Source: Arenimonas terrae
GTDB lineage: Bacteria; Pseudomonadota; Gammaproteobacteria; Xanthomonadales; Xanthomonadaceae
Direction of reading: 5' to 3'
Assembly (NCBI RefSeq): GCF_006265115.1
Contig: NZ_SMDR01000001.1
Span: 868,001 to 932,000 of the forward strand
Length of the DNA: 64,000 nucleotides
Shown: in pieces, positions 2,636-63,356 of the stretch
Position numbering within the stretch: position 1 is the stretch's first letter
Layout of the letters: each line of letters begins with the position of its first letter
Made by a program: the position numbers and the translations under genes
The notes under the pieces: model-generated
Told to the model about the DNA's origin: nothing
Database searches by the model: none
Seen by the model: only the letters and a program-made list of their open reading frames with translations

Positions 2636-3526
2636 TCAGGGGCTTTCGTGTTCGAGGCGCCGGCAAAGCTGGGCCATGGCGTCCGCCTGGCCCTGGTGCG
2701 CCGCCGACAGCGAGGTCAGCGGCAGGCGCAGGCCGTGGCCGATGCCCTGGCGGGCCAGCAGGGCCTTGACCGGGATCGGGTTGGGCTCGACGCCGAGGAA
2801 GTCGTACAGGCCGGACAGGCCGGCGTCCTGCGCCGACGCCGCCTCGCCCTGCCCCGCCGCGACCAGGTCGCAGAGGCGGCGGAAGGTCGCGGGCACCACG
2901 TTCGACGCGACCGAGATCACGCCGCTCGCCCCGCCGCGCAGCGCCCGCACGAAGGTCGGGTCGTCGCCGCTGAGCAGGGCGAAGTCGCTGCCCGCCAGCG
3001 GATAAAGCGCGTTCCAGCGCGCCTCGTCGCCGCGGGCCTCCTTCAGGCCGACGATGCCCGGATGCCGGCACAGGCGGGCGACGGTCTCGGGTTGCAGGTC
3101 GCAGCCGGTGCGGCCGGGCACGTTGTAGAGCACCACCGGCAGGCCGCCCTGTTCGGCGACCGCGGTGTAGTGCGCGACCAGGCCTTCCTGCGTGGGGCGC
3201 ACGTAAGGCGGCGTCACCACCAGGGCGGCGTCGGCGCCGCCGTCGCGGGCGAGCCGCGTCTGGGCGATGGTCTTGGCGGTGTTGGACTGGCCGGTACCGG
3301 CGAGCACCACCAGCCGGTCGCCGGCCTGGGCGACCGCGGCGCGCAGCAGGCGCAGGTACTCGTCGTCGGACAGCGCGGCCGCTTCGCCGGTGGATCCGGC
3401 GACGACGATGCCGCGGGTTCCGCCGCGAAGCTGCAGGTCGATCAGGCGCGCCCAGGCGTCGAGGTCGAGGTCGCCGGCGGCCGTGAACGGCGTGGCCAGG
3501 GCGGTGATGCTGCCGGAAAGGTGCAA
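2636..3526 (-). CDS. dapA: 4-hydroxy-tetrahydrodipicolinate synthase
   Basis: Condenses pyruvate with aspartate semialdehyde, the first committed step of the lysine/diaminopimelate pathway, in the cytoplasm. With the TTG start at 3526 the protein is 296 aa, close to the usual 290-295. The TIM-barrel active-site residues are in place: S45-T46 in AGSTGEAA, Y134 in LYNVPGRTG with R139, and the Schiff-base lysine K162 in GLKEARGD. An upstream in-frame ATG would add about 49 residues with no homology and would run into the divergent gcvR promoter, so I chose TTG, where homology begins. It is transcribed with bamC. Confidence 0.95.
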   Translation of the reverse strand: MHLSGSITALATPFTAAGDLDLDAWARLIDLQLRGGTRGIVVAGSTGEAAALSDDEYLRLLRAAVAQAGDRLVVLAGTGQSNTAKTIAQTRLARDGGADAALVVTPPYVRPTQEGLVAHYTAVAEQGGLPVVLYNVPGRTGCDLQPETVARLCRHPGIVGLKEARGDEARWNALYPLAGSDFALLSGDDPTFVRALRGGASGVISVASNVVPATFRRLCDLVAAGQGEAASAQDAGLSGLYDFLGVEPNPIPVKALLARQGIGHGLRLPLTSLSAAHQGQADAMAQLCRRLEHESP

Positions 3527-3641
3527 AGGAAAGGCCTTGCGGGGACTGGCGCCGATGTTACTTGCGGCCGGAAAGCGGCGGCAAGTATGCTGGCTTCGCC
3601 CCTTCCGCGCCGATTCATCCGCGCCGCCACGGAACACCGAA

Positions 3642-4202
3642 TTGACCGACCCCGCCGCACGCCCGACCGCCAACGAGAACCACCTGCTGATCAGCGCCTA
3701 CACCACGCATCCGCAGTCGCCCCTGCTGGCCGTCACCCGCCGCATTTCCGACAGTGGCTGCAACATGGTGGACGCCCGCCTCTCGACCGTCGGCCGGGAC
3801 GTTTCCGTCACCGCGCTCGCAGTCGGGTCCTGGGACGCCGTCGCCAAGCTCGAGGCCATGCTGACGCGGCTTGAGCGCGAGGAAGGCTACAAGCTGGTCT
3901 GGTACCGCACCGGCCCCAAGGCCCTGCAGTCGAACCTGCTGCCCTACATCGTCGAGGTCGTGGCGGCCGACAAGCCCGGCATCCTGTTCCAGCTGGCCGA
4001 TTTCTTCGACCGCCAGGGCATCACGATCGAAAGCCTGCACAGTTCGCGCTACCGGGCCATGCAGACCGGCGCCGACATGTTCTCGGCCCAGGTGACCATC
4101 GGCATTCCCTCGAACATGCACATCGCCGCGCTGCGCGACGACTTCCTCGAGTTCTGCGACCACCTGAACCTCGATGCCATCATGGACCCGATGAAGTTCT
4201 GA
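3642..4202 (+). CDS. gcvR: Glycine cleavage system transcriptional repressor-like ACT protein
   Basis: Two ACT domains make up the 186-aa protein: residues about 12-85 (LLISAYTTHPQSPLLAVTRR) and about 103-175 (YIVEVVAADKPGILFQLADF). This is the architecture of GcvR, which in E. coli binds glycine and blocks activation of the glycine-cleavage operon by GcvA. The start is TTG at 3642, the first start codon before the ACT homology; dapA on the other strand also uses TTG. It is followed after 7 nt by bcp, and the gcvR-bcp pair beside dapA-bamC matches the E. coli arrangement. The regulatory role is inferred from the family; no gcv genes are in the window. Confidence 0.85.
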   Translation: MTDPAARPTANENHLLISAYTTHPQSPLLAVTRRISDSGCNMVDARLSTVGRDVSVTALAVGSWDAVAKLEAMLTRLEREEGYKLVWYRTGPKALQSNLLPYIVEVVAADKPGILFQLADFFDRQGITIESLHSSRYRAMQTGADMFSAQVTIGIPSNMHIAALRDDFLEFCDHLNLDAIMDPMKF

Positions 4203-4209
4203 CGACGGA

Positions 4210-4683
4210 ATGATCGACACCGGCGACCGCATCCTCGATCTCCCCCTGGCCCTGGGCAGCGGCCGGACCAGCAACCTGTCCGACTACGCCGGCCGCTGGC
4301 TGGTGATGTATTTCTATCCCAAGGACAACACGCCCGGCTGCACCACCGAGGGCATCGAGTTCAACGCCGTCTACCCGAAGATACGCAGGGCGGGCGGCGA
4401 GCTGCTCGGCGTCTCGCGCGACTCGGTGAGGTCGCACGCCAATTTCTGCGCCAAGCACGGCTTCGTGTTCGACCTGGTGTCCGACGCCGACGAAGCCGTG
4501 TGCCGCGCTTTCGGTGTGATCAAGCCCAAAAAGCTCTACGGCCGCGATTACATCGGCATCGAGCGCAGCACCTTCCTGATCGACCCCAAGGGCCGCGTCG
4601 CCGAGTGCTGGCGCGCAGTGAAGGTCGCCGGCCACGCCGAAGAGGTGCTGGCCGCACTGCAGAAGGCCGCCAAGGCAAAGTGA
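4210..4683 (+). CDS. bcp: Thioredoxin-dependent peroxiredoxin (Bcp/PrxQ)
   Basis: Reduces hydroperoxides using thioredoxin. The 157-aa protein has the AhpC/TSA fold with the peroxidatic cysteine C44 in PKDNTPGCTTE. E. coli Bcp has a resolving cysteine five residues later; here that position is Ile, so resolution would use another cysteine (one occurs in NFCAKHGF) or an external thiol. It is very likely co-transcribed with gcvR, from which it is separated by 7 nt. Confidence 0.93.
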   Translation: MIDTGDRILDLPLALGSGRTSNLSDYAGRWLVMYFYPKDNTPGCTTEGIEFNAVYPKIRRAGGELLGVSRDSVRSHANFCAKHGFVFDLVSDADEAVCRAFGVIKPKKLYGRDYIGIERSTFLIDPKGRVAECWRAVKVAGHAEEVLAALQKAAKAK

Positions 4684-4704
4684 CCCACCCTCGCGCAAAC
4701 CCGG

Positions 4705-4735
4705 ACCGCCGTCTCGCCCCGCGAGCCACGGCGGT
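4705..4735. other. Stem-loop downstream of bcp
   Basis: The arms ACCGCCGT (4705-4712) and ACGGCGGT (4728-4735) enclose an inner stem CTCGC/GCGAG with a CCC loop. There is no T-tract, so this is either a Rho-assisted or inefficient terminator of gcvR-bcp, or a structure in the phoH leader. The rest of 4684-4845 shows nothing recognisable. Confidence 0.45.
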
Positions 4736-4845
4736 TCGCTGCTGTGCGTTCCATGGAAGACCGATCCCCGCGGGCACCGGACGTGCTTTCGCGGTAACAC
4801 AGGGATGTGAGCCTGTTGTCCGTGTCCAACCTAGCCGAGAAGCCC

Positions 4846-6243
4846 ATGACTAGAAGCAAGCGGATCTACGTACTGGACACCAACGTGCTGATGCACGACC
4901 CGACCGCGCTGTTCAAGTTCGAAGAGCACGACGTCTTCATCCCGATGATGGTCCTGGAGGAGCTGGACAACGGCAAGAAGGGCCACAGCGAAGCCAGCCG
5001 CAATGCCCGCCAGGTCAGCCGCTTCCTCAACGAGATCATCGAGGCGCACGGCAGCCAGAAGCTCGAGCAGGGCGTGAAGCTCGAGCAGCCCAAGGGGCTG
5101 CAGCTGCGTTCGCAGGAAAGCGTCGGCCGCCTGCTTTTCCAGCTCAAGCCGGTCGAGAACGGCAAGAAGTTCGGCAAGGTGCTGCCGGACAACCTGATCC
5201 TGTCGTCCATCCTGCAGCTGATCGAAGACAATCCGGGCGTGCCCGTGGTGCTGGTGTCCAAGGACATCAACCTGCGCATCAAGGCCTCGATCGCCGGCGT
5301 CAAGGCCGAGGACTACGAAAACGACCGCGCGATCGACGACTTCAACCTGCTGTTCACCGGCGCCAACGAGCTGCCGGCGGACTTCTGGGAGCGCCACGAG
5401 GGCAGCCTGCGCAGCTGGACGGAAAAAGGCCGCACCTTCTACGAAGTGCGCCGCACCGAGGACGACGGCTGGTACCCGAACCAGTTCCTGTACATGCCCG
5501 GCGACGACGAAGTGGAGATGAAGGTCGCCAAGCTCGACGACCAGCGCGCCGTGCTGCAGATCGTCGACGACTTCCGCAGCCCGCAGCACCAGGTCTGGGG
5601 CATCAACGCCCGCAACCGCGAGCAGAACTTCGCCTTCAACGCGCTGATGGACCCGGAGATCGACTTCGTCACCCTGCTCGGCACCGCCGGCACTGGCAAG
5701 ACCCTGCTGGCCCTGGCCGCCGGCCTGACCCAGACCATGGACATCCAGCGCTACCGCGAGATCATCATGACCCGCGCGACGGTGAGCGTCGGCGAGGACA
5801 TCGGCTTCCTGCCGGGCACCGAAGAGGAGAAGATGACGCCATGGATGGGCGCGCTCACCGACAACCTGGAAGTGCTGACGCACACCGAGGACCACGGCAG
5901 CTGGGGCCGCGGCGCCACCAACGAGCTGCTGGCCTCGCGCATCAAGATCCGCTCGATGAACTTCATGCGCGGCCGCACCTTCCTCAACCGCTGGGTGATC
6001 GTCGACGAGGCGCAGAACCTCACGCCCAAGCAGATGAAGACCCTGATCACGCGCGCCGGCCCGGGCACCAAGATCATCTGCATGGGCAACGTCGAGCAGA
6101 TCGACACGCCCTACCTCACCGAAACCACCTCGGGCCTGACCTACGCGGTGGACCGGTTCAAGAACTGGGCGCATTCGGCGCACATCACGCTGCGCCGCGG
6201 CGAACGTTCGCGCCTGGCGGACTACGCTTCGGAAGTGCTGTGA
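4846..6243 (+). CDS. PIN-PhoH fusion protein (PhoH2-type ATPase/nuclease)
   Basis: Fusion of an N-terminal PIN endoribonuclease domain (starts YVLDTNVLMHD, ends near residue 150) and a C-terminal PhoH ATPase domain; such proteins are described as RNA helicase/RNases. Walker A GTAGTGKT is at about residues 279-286 and Walker B VIVDEAQN near 384-391. The PIN acidic residues (D in LDTNVL, E in VLEELDN, D in SKDINLRIKA) are present, so it looks catalytically competent. I chose the ATG at 4846 (465 aa), where homology begins; an in-frame GTG at 4807 would add 13 residues. Despite the name, nothing upstream resembles a Pho box. Confidence 0.92.
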   Translation: MTRSKRIYVLDTNVLMHDPTALFKFEEHDVFIPMMVLEELDNGKKGHSEASRNARQVSRFLNEIIEAHGSQKLEQGVKLEQPKGLQLRSQESVGRLLFQLKPVENGKKFGKVLPDNLILSSILQLIEDNPGVPVVLVSKDINLRIKASIAGVKAEDYENDRAIDDFNLLFTGANELPADFWERHEGSLRSWTEKGRTFYEVRRTEDDGWYPNQFLYMPGDDEVEMKVAKLDDQRAVLQIVDDFRSPQHQVWGINARNREQNFAFNALMDPEIDFVTLLGTAGTGKTLLALAAGLTQTMDIQRYREIIMTRATVSVGEDIGFLPGTEEEKMTPWMGALTDNLEVLTHTEDHGSWGRGATNELLASRIKIRSMNFMRGRTFLNRWVIVDEAQNLTPKQMKTLITRAGPGTKIICMGNVEQIDTPYLTETTSGLTYAVDRFKNWAHSAHITLRRGERSRLADYASEVL

Positions 6244-60420: not shown

Positions 60421-60481
60421 CCGCATCCGGCGCCGCCCGGCGGAACCTCGTCGGCCGGCCGCGGCCCGGATGCGGTTTTTT
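60421..60481 (+). terminator. Terminator of the RND operon
   Basis: A 10-bp stem CCGCATCCGG (60421-60430)/CCGGATGCGG (60466-60475), extended by an A-T pair, has a 35-nt GC-rich apical region and is followed by T6 (60476-60481). The T-run touches the stop codon of the convergent cyclase gene. Confidence 0.85.
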
Positions 60482-62253
60482 CAGAAGGTGTGCGCCGGAC
60501 CGGCGCGCAGGTGGTACATGCGCAGGCTGCCGTAGCCTTTGGCCGCCGGCACCAGGCCGACGTAGTCGCAGTCGAAACCGTCGGGGTCCAGGGCCAGGCG
60601 CGCGGCGAACTGTTCGGTGACGTAGACTTCGCCGGCCGGCGTCACCGGCTCGATGCGCGCCGTGCGGCTGACGTGCGCGCCGAAATAGTTGGTCAGGCCC
60701 AGCACCGGGTCCACCGCCTCGTAGACGGGCCCGAAATGCCCGCCCAGGCGCAGCGCCAGCGACTCCGGCAAGCCGCACTGCGCCAGGTCGATCGCGGCCA
60801 TCGCCGCCTGCAGCTTCAGCGCGCAGCGCGCGGCCAGCGCCGGATCGGCCAGCACGACGAACAGGCCGTCGCCCCAGGTATTGCGGTACAGCACCTGCCC
60901 GCCGTACTGCGCGAGCACGCCGGCGAACGCGCCCAACACGTGCGTGACGAAGGCGGTGACCTGGGTTTCGCTGAGCCGGCTGAACCCCTGGATGTCACCG
61001 AACAGCATGGCCTTGAGTTCGCGCTGCCCCGGTGCGGGCGCGGCGGTGACGCGCACCGGCGCGGGCGCGGCGCCGGGATCCGGCGTGATCACCTCCAGCG
61101 CCCGCCCGGATTCACGCCACAGCCGGACGTCGAAGCCGGTGCCGGCGACCCCGGCGCTCTCCTGCCCGTCCCACACCGCGACCTGCCGTACCGGCGCGTC
61201 GAGGAAGCGGGCGCGCAGGCTGGCCAGACCCATCGCCAGGAACGAGCCATAGGCGAAGATCCATTCGTGGCCCAGCTGGCGGTCATCGGTGGCGAAACTC
61301 AGCGAAGTCGCACGCGCCAGGCAGGCGTGGAAGCGCTCGACCCAGGCCGGGCCAGCCGGCGCCACCGACACCGCCACGAACTCCTCGCGCTCGAACGGCA
61401 GCACCACGTGCAGCTCGGCGCCGCGCGCGAGCAGCGCCTCGGCGAACAGGATGTCGGCGCCGCAGGCGAGCGCGCCGTAGCCGAAACCCACGCGCTGCCG
61501 CGCCAGCACCTCGGCGATCTGGGCGGCCACCGCCGCCTCGCGTTCCGCCGGAAAGCGGCCGACGGCGCCTTCCGCGGCAATCATGTGGCCGGTGTAGTGG
61601 ATCACCGTCGGCGGCGCCAGCTCATGCAGCAGGTCGTCGGCGATGCCGCGCGCGGCGCAGACCCGGCGCAGCTGGCGGCGCGTCGCGGCGCGGGCCGCGA
61701 GGTCGCCCCCCGCGGCCGCCGCGCGCGCCAGCGCATCGCAGGCGCGCGCGGTGTCGCCCTGCACCAGGGCGGCCTCGGCTTCCGACGCGGCGCGGTAATA
61801 CGGTTCGTCGGCGCCCTTGGCGCAAAGGGCGTGCACCTCGCGCGCCAGGCGTTCCGCCGCCGGCGACTGCCCCGCGAGCAGGCGAAGGCTGGCGGCGTTT
61901 ACTGCCGGGTAATAACCGCCGCCGCGCAGGTGCGCCGCTTCGTACAGGTCGGCGGCGCGCGCCAGCAGCCCTTCGCGCTCATGCGCCGGCGCGGCCAGCG
62001 CGCGGTCCTTGGCGATGCGCGCCGCGAGCGCGGCGACTTCGGTTTCCTGCGACCGCGCCAGGCCCAGCCGGGCGAACTCGCTTTCCGCACGCGCCGTGGC
62101 GCCGGCCTTGGCCAGGTTGAGCACCGCGCGGTGCGCCAGCCACAGGTCCTCGGGATGTTCGGCCAGGCCCTGCAGGGCGGTGTCGTAGGCCAGCAGCAGT
62201 TCGCCGCGCGCTTCGTGGCCGCGGACGCGCGCCAGCCAGTCCGCGGCGCTCAT
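60481..62253 (-). CDS. TRAFs-binding-like / SLOG-like / class III nucleotidyl cyclase protein
   Basis: A 590-aa soluble protein of three parts. Residues 1-205 are helical repeats with the look of a MAP3K TRAFs-binding (DUF4071-type) region, including a YEAAHLRGGGYYPAVNAASL segment. Residues about 214-360 resemble a SLOG/Rossmann nucleotide-binding fold (HYTGHMIA, GALACGADILFAEALL, LHVVLPFEREEF). Residues about 412-585 form a class III cyclase homology domain: metal ligands D420 in LFGDIQGFS and D462 in NTWGDGLFV, and the catalytic Arg R533. The usual Asn of the V-N-x-x-A-R motif is Ser529, so activity needs proof. ATP versus GTP use cannot be decided. It starts 5 nt after the TIR gene stop, as the second gene of one operon. 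Confidence 0.82.
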   Translation of the reverse strand: MSAADWLARVRGHEARGELLLAYDTALQGLAEHPEDLWLAHRAVLNLAKAGATARAESEFARLGLARSQETEVAALAARIAKDRALAAPAHEREGLLARAADLYEAAHLRGGGYYPAVNAASLRLLAGQSPAAERLAREVHALCAKGADEPYYRAASEAEAALVQGDTARACDALARAAAAGGDLAARAATRRQLRRVCAARGIADDLLHELAPPTVIHYTGHMIAAEGAVGRFPAEREAAVAAQIAEVLARQRVGFGYGALACGADILFAEALLARGAELHVVLPFEREEFVAVSVAPAGPAWVERFHACLARATSLSFATDDRQLGHEWIFAYGSFLAMGLASLRARFLDAPVRQVAVWDGQESAGVAGTGFDVRLWRESGRALEVITPDPGAAPAPVRVTAAPAPGQRELKAMLFGDIQGFSRLSETQVTAFVTHVLGAFAGVLAQYGGQVLYRNTWGDGLFVVLADPALAARCALKLQAAMAAIDLAQCGLPESLALRLGGHFGPVYEAVDPVLGLTNYFGAHVSRTARIEPVTPAGEVYVTEQFAARLALDPDGFDCDYVGLVPAAKGYGSLRMYHLRAGPAHTF

Positions 62254-62258
62254 CGGGC

Positions 62259-63356
62259 TCAGTCTTTCCGACCGTCGCAGCGCATGCGCAGGATCGACCC
62301 GTCCTCGACTGCGCCGTTGGCGAACACCAGCTTCATCATGCTGTCGTCGACGATCTCGAAGCGGGCGGTATTGTCGGCGGCCACGGGCTCGTCGACCGGC
62401 TGCATCTCGAAACCGCCGGCGACCGGCACGATACGCGAAGGAACGTCCCAGGGCGCCGCCTGCGGGTGGTCGACGCGGGTCAGCACGGTGTCGGCGCCGG
62501 TGCGGATCACCTCGTAGACGATGGTCAGGCCGTTGTAGGGCTGGCACCAGGTGCCGGTGAAGAAGGCGACGTCGCTGCGCGACGGGCCGGCGGGGACCGG
62601 CGCGACCTGCGTGACCGCGGGTGCGGGGGCGGGCGCCGGAGGCGCGGAACGGGCGGCCGCGGCCGCGGCTTCCGTTGCGGCCTCGACGTTTTCGATGGCG
62701 TCCGCAGGCAGCGGCGCCTCTTGGGCGGAAATCGCCGCCTCGGCAAGCTCCGCCGACGATGGCTCGGCGGCGGCGGGCACCGAGCGCTGCTCCGCCTCGG
62801 GTGCCTGCGCCGGTGCCGGTGCGCGTGCGAACCACAGTGCGGCCGCAGCGCCCAGCGCCGCAACGGCGACCAGGGCAAGACCGATGCTCACGCCGTGGCG
62901 CGCACCGGCGCGGGGCGTCGCGAGCGGCGGCGCAACCGATCGCACCGGCGCCGACCCCGGCGCCCCCATCGCCTTGATCGCGGCGACCAGGGGCAGCAGG
63001 TGCTGCTCCATCGGCGATTTCCAGGCATCGACCCACTGCGCCGACGAGATGTAGAACTCGAGCGCGCCCGAAGGCGTCACCTCGCGGATGCGCACCGGCA
63101 GCACGGGCTTGGTCTTGCTCACCGCGCGCTCGACTTCCTTGCGCACGAACTGCGATTCGTTGGACTGGTCCGACAGCACCAGCACCAGGGCGCGGGCCTC
63201 GCCGATGGCGTCGATGATCGCTTCGCCGTATTCGACGCCGGGACCGACGTCGCGCGGCGCGACCCAGCAGCGGATGCCCTGCTCTTCCAGATACCCGACG
63301 ATGCGGAACGCCACGTCGCGATCGGCGCTGGCGTAACTGACGAAAACATCCGCCAT
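62259..63356 (-). CDS. Membrane-anchored TIR-domain protein
   Basis: A 365-aa protein. Residues 1-128 form a TIR domain (DVFVSYASADRDVAFRIV, CWVAPRDVGPGVEYGEAI, ALVLVLSDQSNESQFVRKEVERA). The catalytic Glu of NADase TIRs would fall in the V41-A46 segment, where E42 and E45 are candidates; alignment with SARM1 places a Gly at that exact position. Residues 156-177 are one transmembrane helix preceded by Arg/His, which puts the TIR in the cytoplasm. Then come an Ala/Pro/Glu-rich linker (178-260) and a C-terminal beta-rich domain (261-365) in the periplasm with two cysteines (C271 and one near the end). It is the first gene of the operon with the cyclase protein. Confidence 0.87.
   Translation of the reverse strand: MADVFVSYASADRDVAFRIVGYLEEQGIRCWVAPRDVGPGVEYGEAIIDAIGEARALVLVLSDQSNESQFVRKEVERAVSKTKPVLPVRIREVTPSGALEFYISSAQWVDAWKSPMEQHLLPLVAAIKAMGAPGSAPVRSVAPPLATPRAGARHGVSIGLALVAVAALGAAAALWFARAPAPAQAPEAEQRSVPAAAEPSSAELAEAAISAQEAPLPADAIENVEAATEAAAAAARSAPPAPAPAPAVTQVAPVPAGPSRSDVAFFTGTWCQPYNGLTIVYEVIRTGADTVLTRVDHPQAAPWDVPSRIVPVAGGFEMQPVDEPVAADNTARFEIVDDSMMKLVFANGAVEDGSILRMRCDGRKD

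Follow-up and report, generated by a model that had tools for sequence, protein, structure and literature searches.

A membrane TIR protein and a TPR-S–SLOG–class III cyclase protein as a putative two-gene signalling relay in Arenimonas terrae

Here, we describe a gene pair in a 64,000-nucleotide stretch of the Arenimonas terrae genome (contig NZ_SMDR01000001.1, positions 868,001 to 932,000; hereafter 'the window', in which all positions are numbered from its first letter). A gene for a membrane-anchored TIR protein comes first on the minus strand and is followed, 5 nt on, by a gene for a single protein that joins a TPR-S region, a SLOG-fold domain and a class III cyclase homology domain (hereafter 'the cyclase protein'). 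We give about an even chance to the proposal that the two products form a relay: a nicotinamide adenine dinucleotide (NAD)-derived signal from the membrane TIR protein would be read by the TPR-S and SLOG domains and would switch the attached cyclase. The strongest evidence that the two products work together is the position-specific enrichment of TIR genes beside cyclase-protein genes, along with the turnover of partners around this gene.

The gene pair

The features of the pair are as follows.

62259..63356, minus strand: TIR protein gene, 365 aa (coordinates include the stop); TIR domain, membrane segment, Ala/Pro-rich linker, C-terminal domain
63015..63347, minus strand: TIR domain, residues 4-114; PF13676 8.3e-23, PF01582 1.3e-5, ThsB_TIR 1.5e-4
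63135-63137, minus strand: codon of the conserved Glu74 of the TIR domain; column E in 43/43 linked TIRs
62835..62891, minus strand: predicted membrane segment, residues 156-174; mean hydropathy 2.37
62262..62573, minus strand: C-terminal domain, probably periplasmic, about residues 262-365; Cys271 and Cys360 invariant in 5/5
62254..62258, minus strand: intergenic gap of 5 nt; the TIR stop ends at 62259 and the next ATG is at 62253
60481..62253, minus strand: TPR-S–SLOG–class III cyclase gene, 590 aa (coordinates include the stop)
61633..62253, minus strand: TPR-S all-helical region, residues 1-207; the PF20308 stretch, residues 28-123, is 61885-62172
61048..61632, minus strand: SLOG-fold domain, residues 208-402 (fold from the model); G222, G265, D267 and E272 invariant
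60484..61047, minus strand: class III cyclase homology domain, residues 403-590; Asp420, Asp462, Arg533 and Lys572, with Asn458 at the presumed base-selecting position

An initial annotation, made from the letters of the window, had already given the correct coordinates, 5-nt spacing and domain order of the pair. Its calls of a TIR domain, a membrane anchor and a cyclase domain agree with Pfam (PF13676, E 8.3e-23; PF00211, E 8.7e-9) and with the single hydrophobic segment at residues 156-174. The helical region that it described as 'TRAFs-binding-like' falls where Pfam puts TPR-S (PF20308).

Linkage to TIR genes

Relatives of the cyclase protein were sought by tblastn (E ≤ 1e-3) in a collection that represents each of 84,980 species by a single genome, and 222 stretches were found to encode one. 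The best 80 of these 222 stretches, together with one locus from a search of Lysobacteraceae, gave 81 loci that are partly non-independent. Genes were called with a simple base-composition script, which makes offsets approximate, and TIR neighbours were counted with a profile grown from the window's TIR domain. Of the genes immediately next to the cyclase gene, 26 of 146 are TIR genes; the count is 14 of 127 at the second position, 3 of 109 at the third, 2 of 100 at the fourth and 4 of 250 from the fifth onwards. The excess of immediate over far neighbours (26/146 vs 4/250) corresponds to an odds ratio of 13 (Fisher p 7e-9), so the co-occurrence on which the initial annotation had staked its interpretation is far above background.

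Most of the adjacent TIR genes (17/26) lie on the strand of the cyclase gene, and both gene orders occur: the TIR gene leads in the window, L014 and L016, and the cyclase gene leads in L031 and L042. In 38 of the 81 loci, a called TIR gene is at most three genes away; by a count of open reading frames (ORFs), which recovers the TIR of L005 missed by the gene caller, 39 of 81 loci carry one. Where at least 4 kb of sequence is available on both sides, 21 of 45 loci have a TIR gene within three genes. The linkage is not peculiar to the window's genome, as similar pairs occur in distant bacteria of several phyla.

Closer relatives give a similar picture. Among 149 Lysobacteraceae genomes searched, 12 have a match to the cyclase protein. 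In five of these, one being the window's own genome, the match extends over most of the protein; in the rest it is confined to a single domain or a short part. Four of the five genomes with a near full-length copy have a TIR match no more than about 2 kb from the gene, and the TIR matches of the fifth (G040) are on a different contig. By comparison, any TIR_2 match is present in 72 of 148 Lysobacteraceae genomes. The window's own genome has one TIR_2 match only, that of the TIR protein described here.

Several loci have more elaborate arrangements. Four TIR genes in a row diverge from the cyclase gene in L036 (958-9868), where the one that was scanned encodes TIR and TPR regions, and three do so in L041 (2481-9569). 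In Nitrospina-type operons (L047 9956-14643, L053 729-5406 and L058 711-5347), the cyclase gene is followed by one for a protein whose periplasmic domain is of the phosphonate-binding kind and then by one for a TIR domain fused to a PAP2 membrane domain. A single Nevskiaceae metagenome-assembled genome holds two similar copies of a cyclase and TIR pair with the TIR gene downstream (L023 9907-12263 and L024 5516-9113).

Other partners and partner turnover

Six loci that lack a TIR gene encode large nSTAND1 proteins with a shared, DUF4062-like N-terminus. The gene adjoins the cyclase gene in L025, L034, L060 and L067 and lies several genes off in L056 and L071. Beyond nSTAND1, these proteins continue into WD40 (L025, L034, L067), TPR (L060) or FGE-sulfatase domains (L056 1597-4470 and L071 1889-4756). 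Passages of a 2026 preprint report DUF4062 as a TIR-like NADase (PMC13174449). The loci are suggestive, though not proof, of a DUF4062-like protein that may replace the TIR protein where the latter is missing. A separate locus, L089, encodes beside the cyclase gene one protein with both TIR and DUF4062 domains (3494-4993; DUF4062 at 27.3 bits, cut-off 24.7).

Partner labels were mapped onto a quick tree built from 61 cyclase-protein sequences, 10 of them unlabelled on account of short stretches. The starred branches of this tree force at least nine changes of TIR linkage and four of DUF4062-like linkage, and the pairing therefore changed repeatedly. The pattern suggests to us that partners turn over fast and that the cyclase protein itself is conserved, although noisy labels would produce much the same picture.

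Many of the genes that flank the pair match those of Arenimonas daejeonensis (L017), and hardly any match those of A. oryziterrae (L014). Among the matches listed, six genomes belong to the window's genus, and the full-length gene is found in the window's own only. The pair is therefore patchy, with inheritance in place seen in one relative only. In that relative (L017 8980-11760, NZ_CP042453.1) the same pair is present with both genes and some neighbours split over several frames; sequencing errors seem a likelier cause than decay. Carriage on a mobile element was considered and rejected: no phage record matches, and of 10 plasmid records that match, none does so over >80% of the query. One plasmid, Caballeronia pSBC2-4, encodes a TPR-S–SLOG–cyclase relative with an altered SLOG domain that gives a partial profile match (L101 3797-6951).

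The TIR protein

The TIR domain is recognized by PF13676 (TIR_2; E 8.3e-23, residues 4-114) and, over the same region, by PF01582 (E 1.3e-5) and ThsB_TIR (E 1.5e-4, over its cut-off); the ThsB models of PADLOC match at E 0.011 or weaker only. Glu74, which we take to be the catalytic residue of TIR NADases, falls in a column that is E in 43 of 43 TIR domains located at most three genes from a relative of the cyclase protein. The TIR protein is predicted to be an active NADase.

The domain is followed by a single hydrophobic segment (residues 156-174) with Arg/His immediately ahead of it, and an Ala/Pro-rich linker leads to a C-terminal domain for which the Pfam scan returns no named family. Cys271 and Cys360 of this domain are invariant in five of five sequences (the window protein and four relatives), which is compatible with a periplasmic disulfide, and the domain is probably periplasmic. 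The initial annotation had called it a periplasmic sensor-like domain; the Cys pair fits the location, and the domain would be a putative sensor. Across the linked TIR proteins, a simple hydropathy rule predicts a membrane segment in 32 of 43, and most of these have an N-terminal TIR domain, then the segment, then TPR-, WD40- or other-like C-terminal parts. These C-terminal calls were made mostly by eye, with Pfam support for TPR in L036. From this layout we infer that the C-terminal or extracytoplasmic parts of linked TIR proteins may sense a stimulus.

The cyclase protein

The N-terminal part of the cyclase protein is matched by PF20308 (TPR-S) at residues 28-123 with an E-value of 6.3e-10 (40 bits vs a gathering score of 27.6). 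Three residues of this part (Y104, N119 and A121) are invariant in all 61 aligned members.

AlphaFold2 modelled the whole protein, from the 61-sequence alignment, with a predicted local distance difference test score (pLDDT) of 94.2 and a predicted template modelling score (pTM) of 0.92. Because the best 50 matches of the whole model in a fold search were all cyclase structures, the middle domain (residues 208-402) was modelled alone, again with a pLDDT of 94.2. Against the PDB, Foldseek ranked DprA, ShosA, LOG (one structure with adenosine monophosphate) and TRPM2 best, at probabilities of 0.96-0.99, with molybdenum-cofactor carrier proteins (0.85-0.87) interspersed among the matches. Against viral models, a DprA-like protein was best (E 1.1e-6, template modelling (TM) score 0.61, as TMq), and proteins labelled 'YspA cpYpsA-related SLOG' stood further down the list. 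Established classification places DprA, LOG and the TRPM domain in the SLOG superfamily. The fold of the model, as the initial annotation had guessed, supports assignment of the middle domain to the Rossmannoid SLOG superfamily.

Sequence profiles were uninformative, so the fold comparison carries the case for SLOG. No Pfam model of any kind matches the window's middle domain at E 1, the Pfam matches of the 61 members include no SLOG model and only scattered chance-level matches, and a profile search of PDB sequences with the middle domain gave a single chance-level receiver-domain match (E 1.7). Within the local set of fetched loci, the middle-domain profile does find the N-terminal domains of three DUF4231/SLATT-type proteins (L101, L043 and L009) at E-values, computed within that set, of 5e-9 to 2e-5. 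In L043, the Pfam SLOG family YAcAr touches the N-terminal stretch of the SLATT-type protein, far under its cut-off. Proteins of this SLOG-SLATT type lie near the cyclase gene in L043 and L101. In L009 (1099-3180, with G120:C126:9347-9706; Lysobacteraceae), a TIR match starts 133 nt past the end of a SLOG-DUF4231-like protein, which is another TIR and SLOG pair, with a membrane output.

Four residues of the middle domain, G222, G265, D267 and E272, are invariant in 61 of 61 members. In the model, G222 lies at the end of the first strand, G265 and D267 after the second, and E272 in the next helix, a region that is the usual ligand site of Rossmann-type folds. The YpsA-like SLOG clade includes sensors of cyclic ADP-ribose (cADPR), according to passages of PMC9503650.

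The C-terminal domain is matched by PF00211 (E 8.7e-9, residues 415-582), and its fold also matches cyclase structures. Residue roles were assigned from known motifs: Asp420 and Asp462, presumably the metal ligands, as well as Arg533 and Lys572, are invariant in 61 of 61 members. Cyclase activity is plausible on this pattern of residues. The PycC model of PADLOC matches weakly (E 0.011, 12.9 bits).

Nine cyclic mononucleotide (cNMP)-binding matches are present in the genome of A. terrae, all outside the window. One of them has a weak class III cyclase match nearby (G000:C5:138762-140214), an arrangement that recalls the Xanthomonas XC_0250/XC_0249 cyclic GMP pair (PMC3770947).

Proposed relay and its alternatives

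In the proposed relay, a stimulus on the extracytoplasmic domain, or on the membrane, would activate the cytoplasmic TIR domain, which would then cleave NAD+ to yield a signal of the ADP-ribose type. Binding of this signal by the partner, through its TPR-S and SLOG domains, would switch the fused class III cyclase, and the cyclic mononucleotide so made would act on a downstream receptor whose gene lies elsewhere. Inferred in this scheme are the NADase activity of the TIR protein, the role of its product as ligand of the SLOG and TPR-S domains, the flow from TIR protein to cyclase, and the activity of the cyclase. A wider version, in which an extracytoplasmic stimulus is turned by a TIR or DUF4062-like protein into an NAD signal and by the TPR-S–SLOG protein into a cNMP, and which would act in general signalling rather than, or besides, phage defence, is more tentative and in our estimate falls somewhat short of an even chance.

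A number of observations weigh against the relay. Linkage to TIR genes is frequent, not obligatory: a TIR ORF is missing from the fetched stretch in 42 of the 81 loci, and 36 have neither a TIR ORF nor a DUF4062-like protein, although 17 of these have <4 kb on one side. The checked neighbours in partnerless loci are ordinary (SecA, CobW, a TonB receptor and a cation efflux protein), and in L101 the place of the TIR gene is taken by an upstream gene with a 4-nt overlap whose product is lipoprotein-like by eye and has no Pfam name. On the tree, TIR linkage is hardly clustered: its 15 changes compare with a mean of 16.9 for shuffled labels, and 103 of the 500 shuffles gave a count no higher. Proteins of TIR-membrane-TPR layout are in any case common. 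As for the DUF4062-like partners, the four adjacent N-termini score 19.7-22.6 bits, under the Pfam cut-off of 24.7, and those of L056 and L071 have no Pfam DUF4062 match at E 0.01 and were assigned by a local profile alone. The PDB matches of the middle domain have E-values of 1.5e-3 to 1e-2, none ≤0.001, and the best of them reach moderate TM-scores of 0.37-0.46, which marks the domain as a divergent branch of SLOG. In the cyclase domain, 57 of 61 members have Asn (N458 in the window) at the base-selecting position, where we take typical class III enzymes to have Lys or Glu. The presumed transition-state Asn is kept in 9 of 61, with Ser/Thr in 46 (S529 in the window). With both positions atypical, the enzyme may depart from the norm in its activity or its substrate. 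Neither gene of the pair was recognized as one for a cNMP receptor.

The genomic surroundings likewise offer little for a role in defence. PADLOC models (threshold 1e-15) were run on 100 genes sampled from 203 at most two positions from the cyclase gene and on 100 sampled from 210 at five or more. The samples comprised non-TIR genes of 100-700 aa, with TIR genes and 24 neighbours >700 aa (nSTAND1 included) left out. In the near sample 33 models matched; among the 25 listed, mad3 was found in three genes and subtilase in two, and the remaining models, many of them PD-T4-6, in one gene each. In the far sample eight models matched, mad3 in two genes and the others in one each. As these tallies are genes per model, the total of genes matched is not exact. 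The defence-island reading was set aside, as the comparison gives no clear enrichment of defence models near the cyclase gene, which is not proof of none. The idea of a phage-responsive system, raised in the initial annotation, thus has no support beyond the domain types. Its overall interpretation is partly supported, by the SLOG fold and the TIR linkage.

Other explanations can be set against the same data. The flow of information could be reversed, with the TPR-S–SLOG–cyclase protein as the sensor and the membrane TIR protein as an NAD+-depleting, growth-stopping effector, as in Pycsar, whose TIR effectors are reportedly activated by cyclic nucleotides. The weak PycC match (E 0.011) fits this reading, and TPR-S and SLOG could sense some other molecule, such as a phage-derived nucleotide. 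However, Pfam, PADLOC and NCBIfam find no cyclic-nucleotide-binding domain in the TIR protein, its extra domain is probably across the membrane, and the 32 of 43 linked TIRs with a membrane segment, many followed by TPR or WD40 parts, resemble inputs and not cNMP receptors. We regard reversed flow as unlikely, though a serious rival, weakened by the lack of the nucleotide-binding domain. A physical scaffold, in which TPR-S binds the TIR domain in one membrane complex and no diffusible NAD-derived signal passes between them, would suit the tight operon with its 5-nt spacing, and TPR regions commonly bind proteins. Yet the partners vary, from diverse TIRs to DUF4062-like proteins, while several SLOG residues are invariant; a shared small molecule fits this combination better than a shared surface, and makes the scaffold improbable.

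It is also conceivable, if rather improbable, that the SLOG domain removes the TIR product, by hydrolysis or sequestration, and that the cyclase domain is a nucleotide-binding regulatory pseudo-enzyme. Certain SLOG enzymes cleave N-glycosidic bonds of adenine nucleotides (passages of PMC9503650), some other conflict systems contain cNMP cyclase domains that are inactive (passages of PMC7159879), and the cyclase domain has lost the transition-state Asn in 52 of 61 members and has Asn at the base position in 57 of 61. Nonetheless, a pseudo-enzyme would have no need of the metal Asps, Arg and Lys, yet all 61 members keep them, and Rv1900c and other established cyclases also lack that Asn (parts of PMC4886424). 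Finally, the two genes could be common signalling genes of separate pathways that meet by loose association, the cyclase protein being an orphan housekeeping regulator. The 36 of 81 loci without either partner type, the ordinary neighbours where checked and the scant clustering of TIR linkage on the tree all suit such an account. It is nevertheless very improbable in view of the position-specific enrichment of TIR genes, the linkage in four of five Lysobacteraceae genomes vs any TIR_2 match in 72 of 148, and the same-strand, closely spaced pairs in both orders.

Relation to known systems

The TPR-S domain is shared with the systems surveyed by Burroughs and Aravind in 2020 (J Bacteriol), who reportedly predicted that it senses NAD+-derived signals, so that part of the idea behind the relay is prior art. 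Pycsar (PycC with PycTIR or PycTM) likewise combines a cyclase and a TIR protein in one small operon. In contrast to Pycsar, the window's TIR protein lacks a cyclic-nucleotide-binding domain, and the domain layout suggests the opposite flow. The pair resembles type I Thoeris (ThsB TIR with ThsA SIR2-SLOG), in which a TIR enzyme also adjoins a SLOG-containing partner: by analogy, it may be a Thoeris-like TIR and SLOG reader with a cyclase as output. Unlike in Thoeris, the TIR protein is membrane-anchored and the SLOG domain shares one polypeptide with TPR-S and a class III cyclase; no SIR2 effector domain or ThsA family was found in the cyclase protein by Pfam, PADLOC or NCBIfam. The SIR2-SLOG protein ThsA is activated by cADPR isomers (PMC11204291; PMC9503650).

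The SLOG-SLATT (DUF4231) membrane effectors have an N-terminal domain that is related in sequence (E 5e-9 to 2e-5 within the local set), but their output is a two-transmembrane domain and here it is a cyclase. The Swarozyc/DUF4062 NADases (PMC13174449) find an echo in the DUF4062-like nSTAND1 proteins near the cyclase gene in six TIR-less loci, whereas the window carries a TIR domain and no DUF4062; as far as its main text goes, that paper mentions neither SLOG nor a cyclase. According to passages of PMC7159879, cNMP cyclases and the TIR-SLOG fold are alternative sources of signals in conflict systems of other kinds. No description of the TPR-S–SLOG–cyclase architecture was found in the literature, judged by titles and abstract openings.

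Outlook

The pair is small, has relatives in several phyla and leads to direct predictions. TIR-made NAD signals are known as triggers of destructive effectors. If the relay is correct, the same TIR chemistry would serve as an amplifying signalling step from the cell surface. It would also join the NAD-signal and cyclic-nucleotide networks, with one nucleotide messenger switching the synthesis of another.

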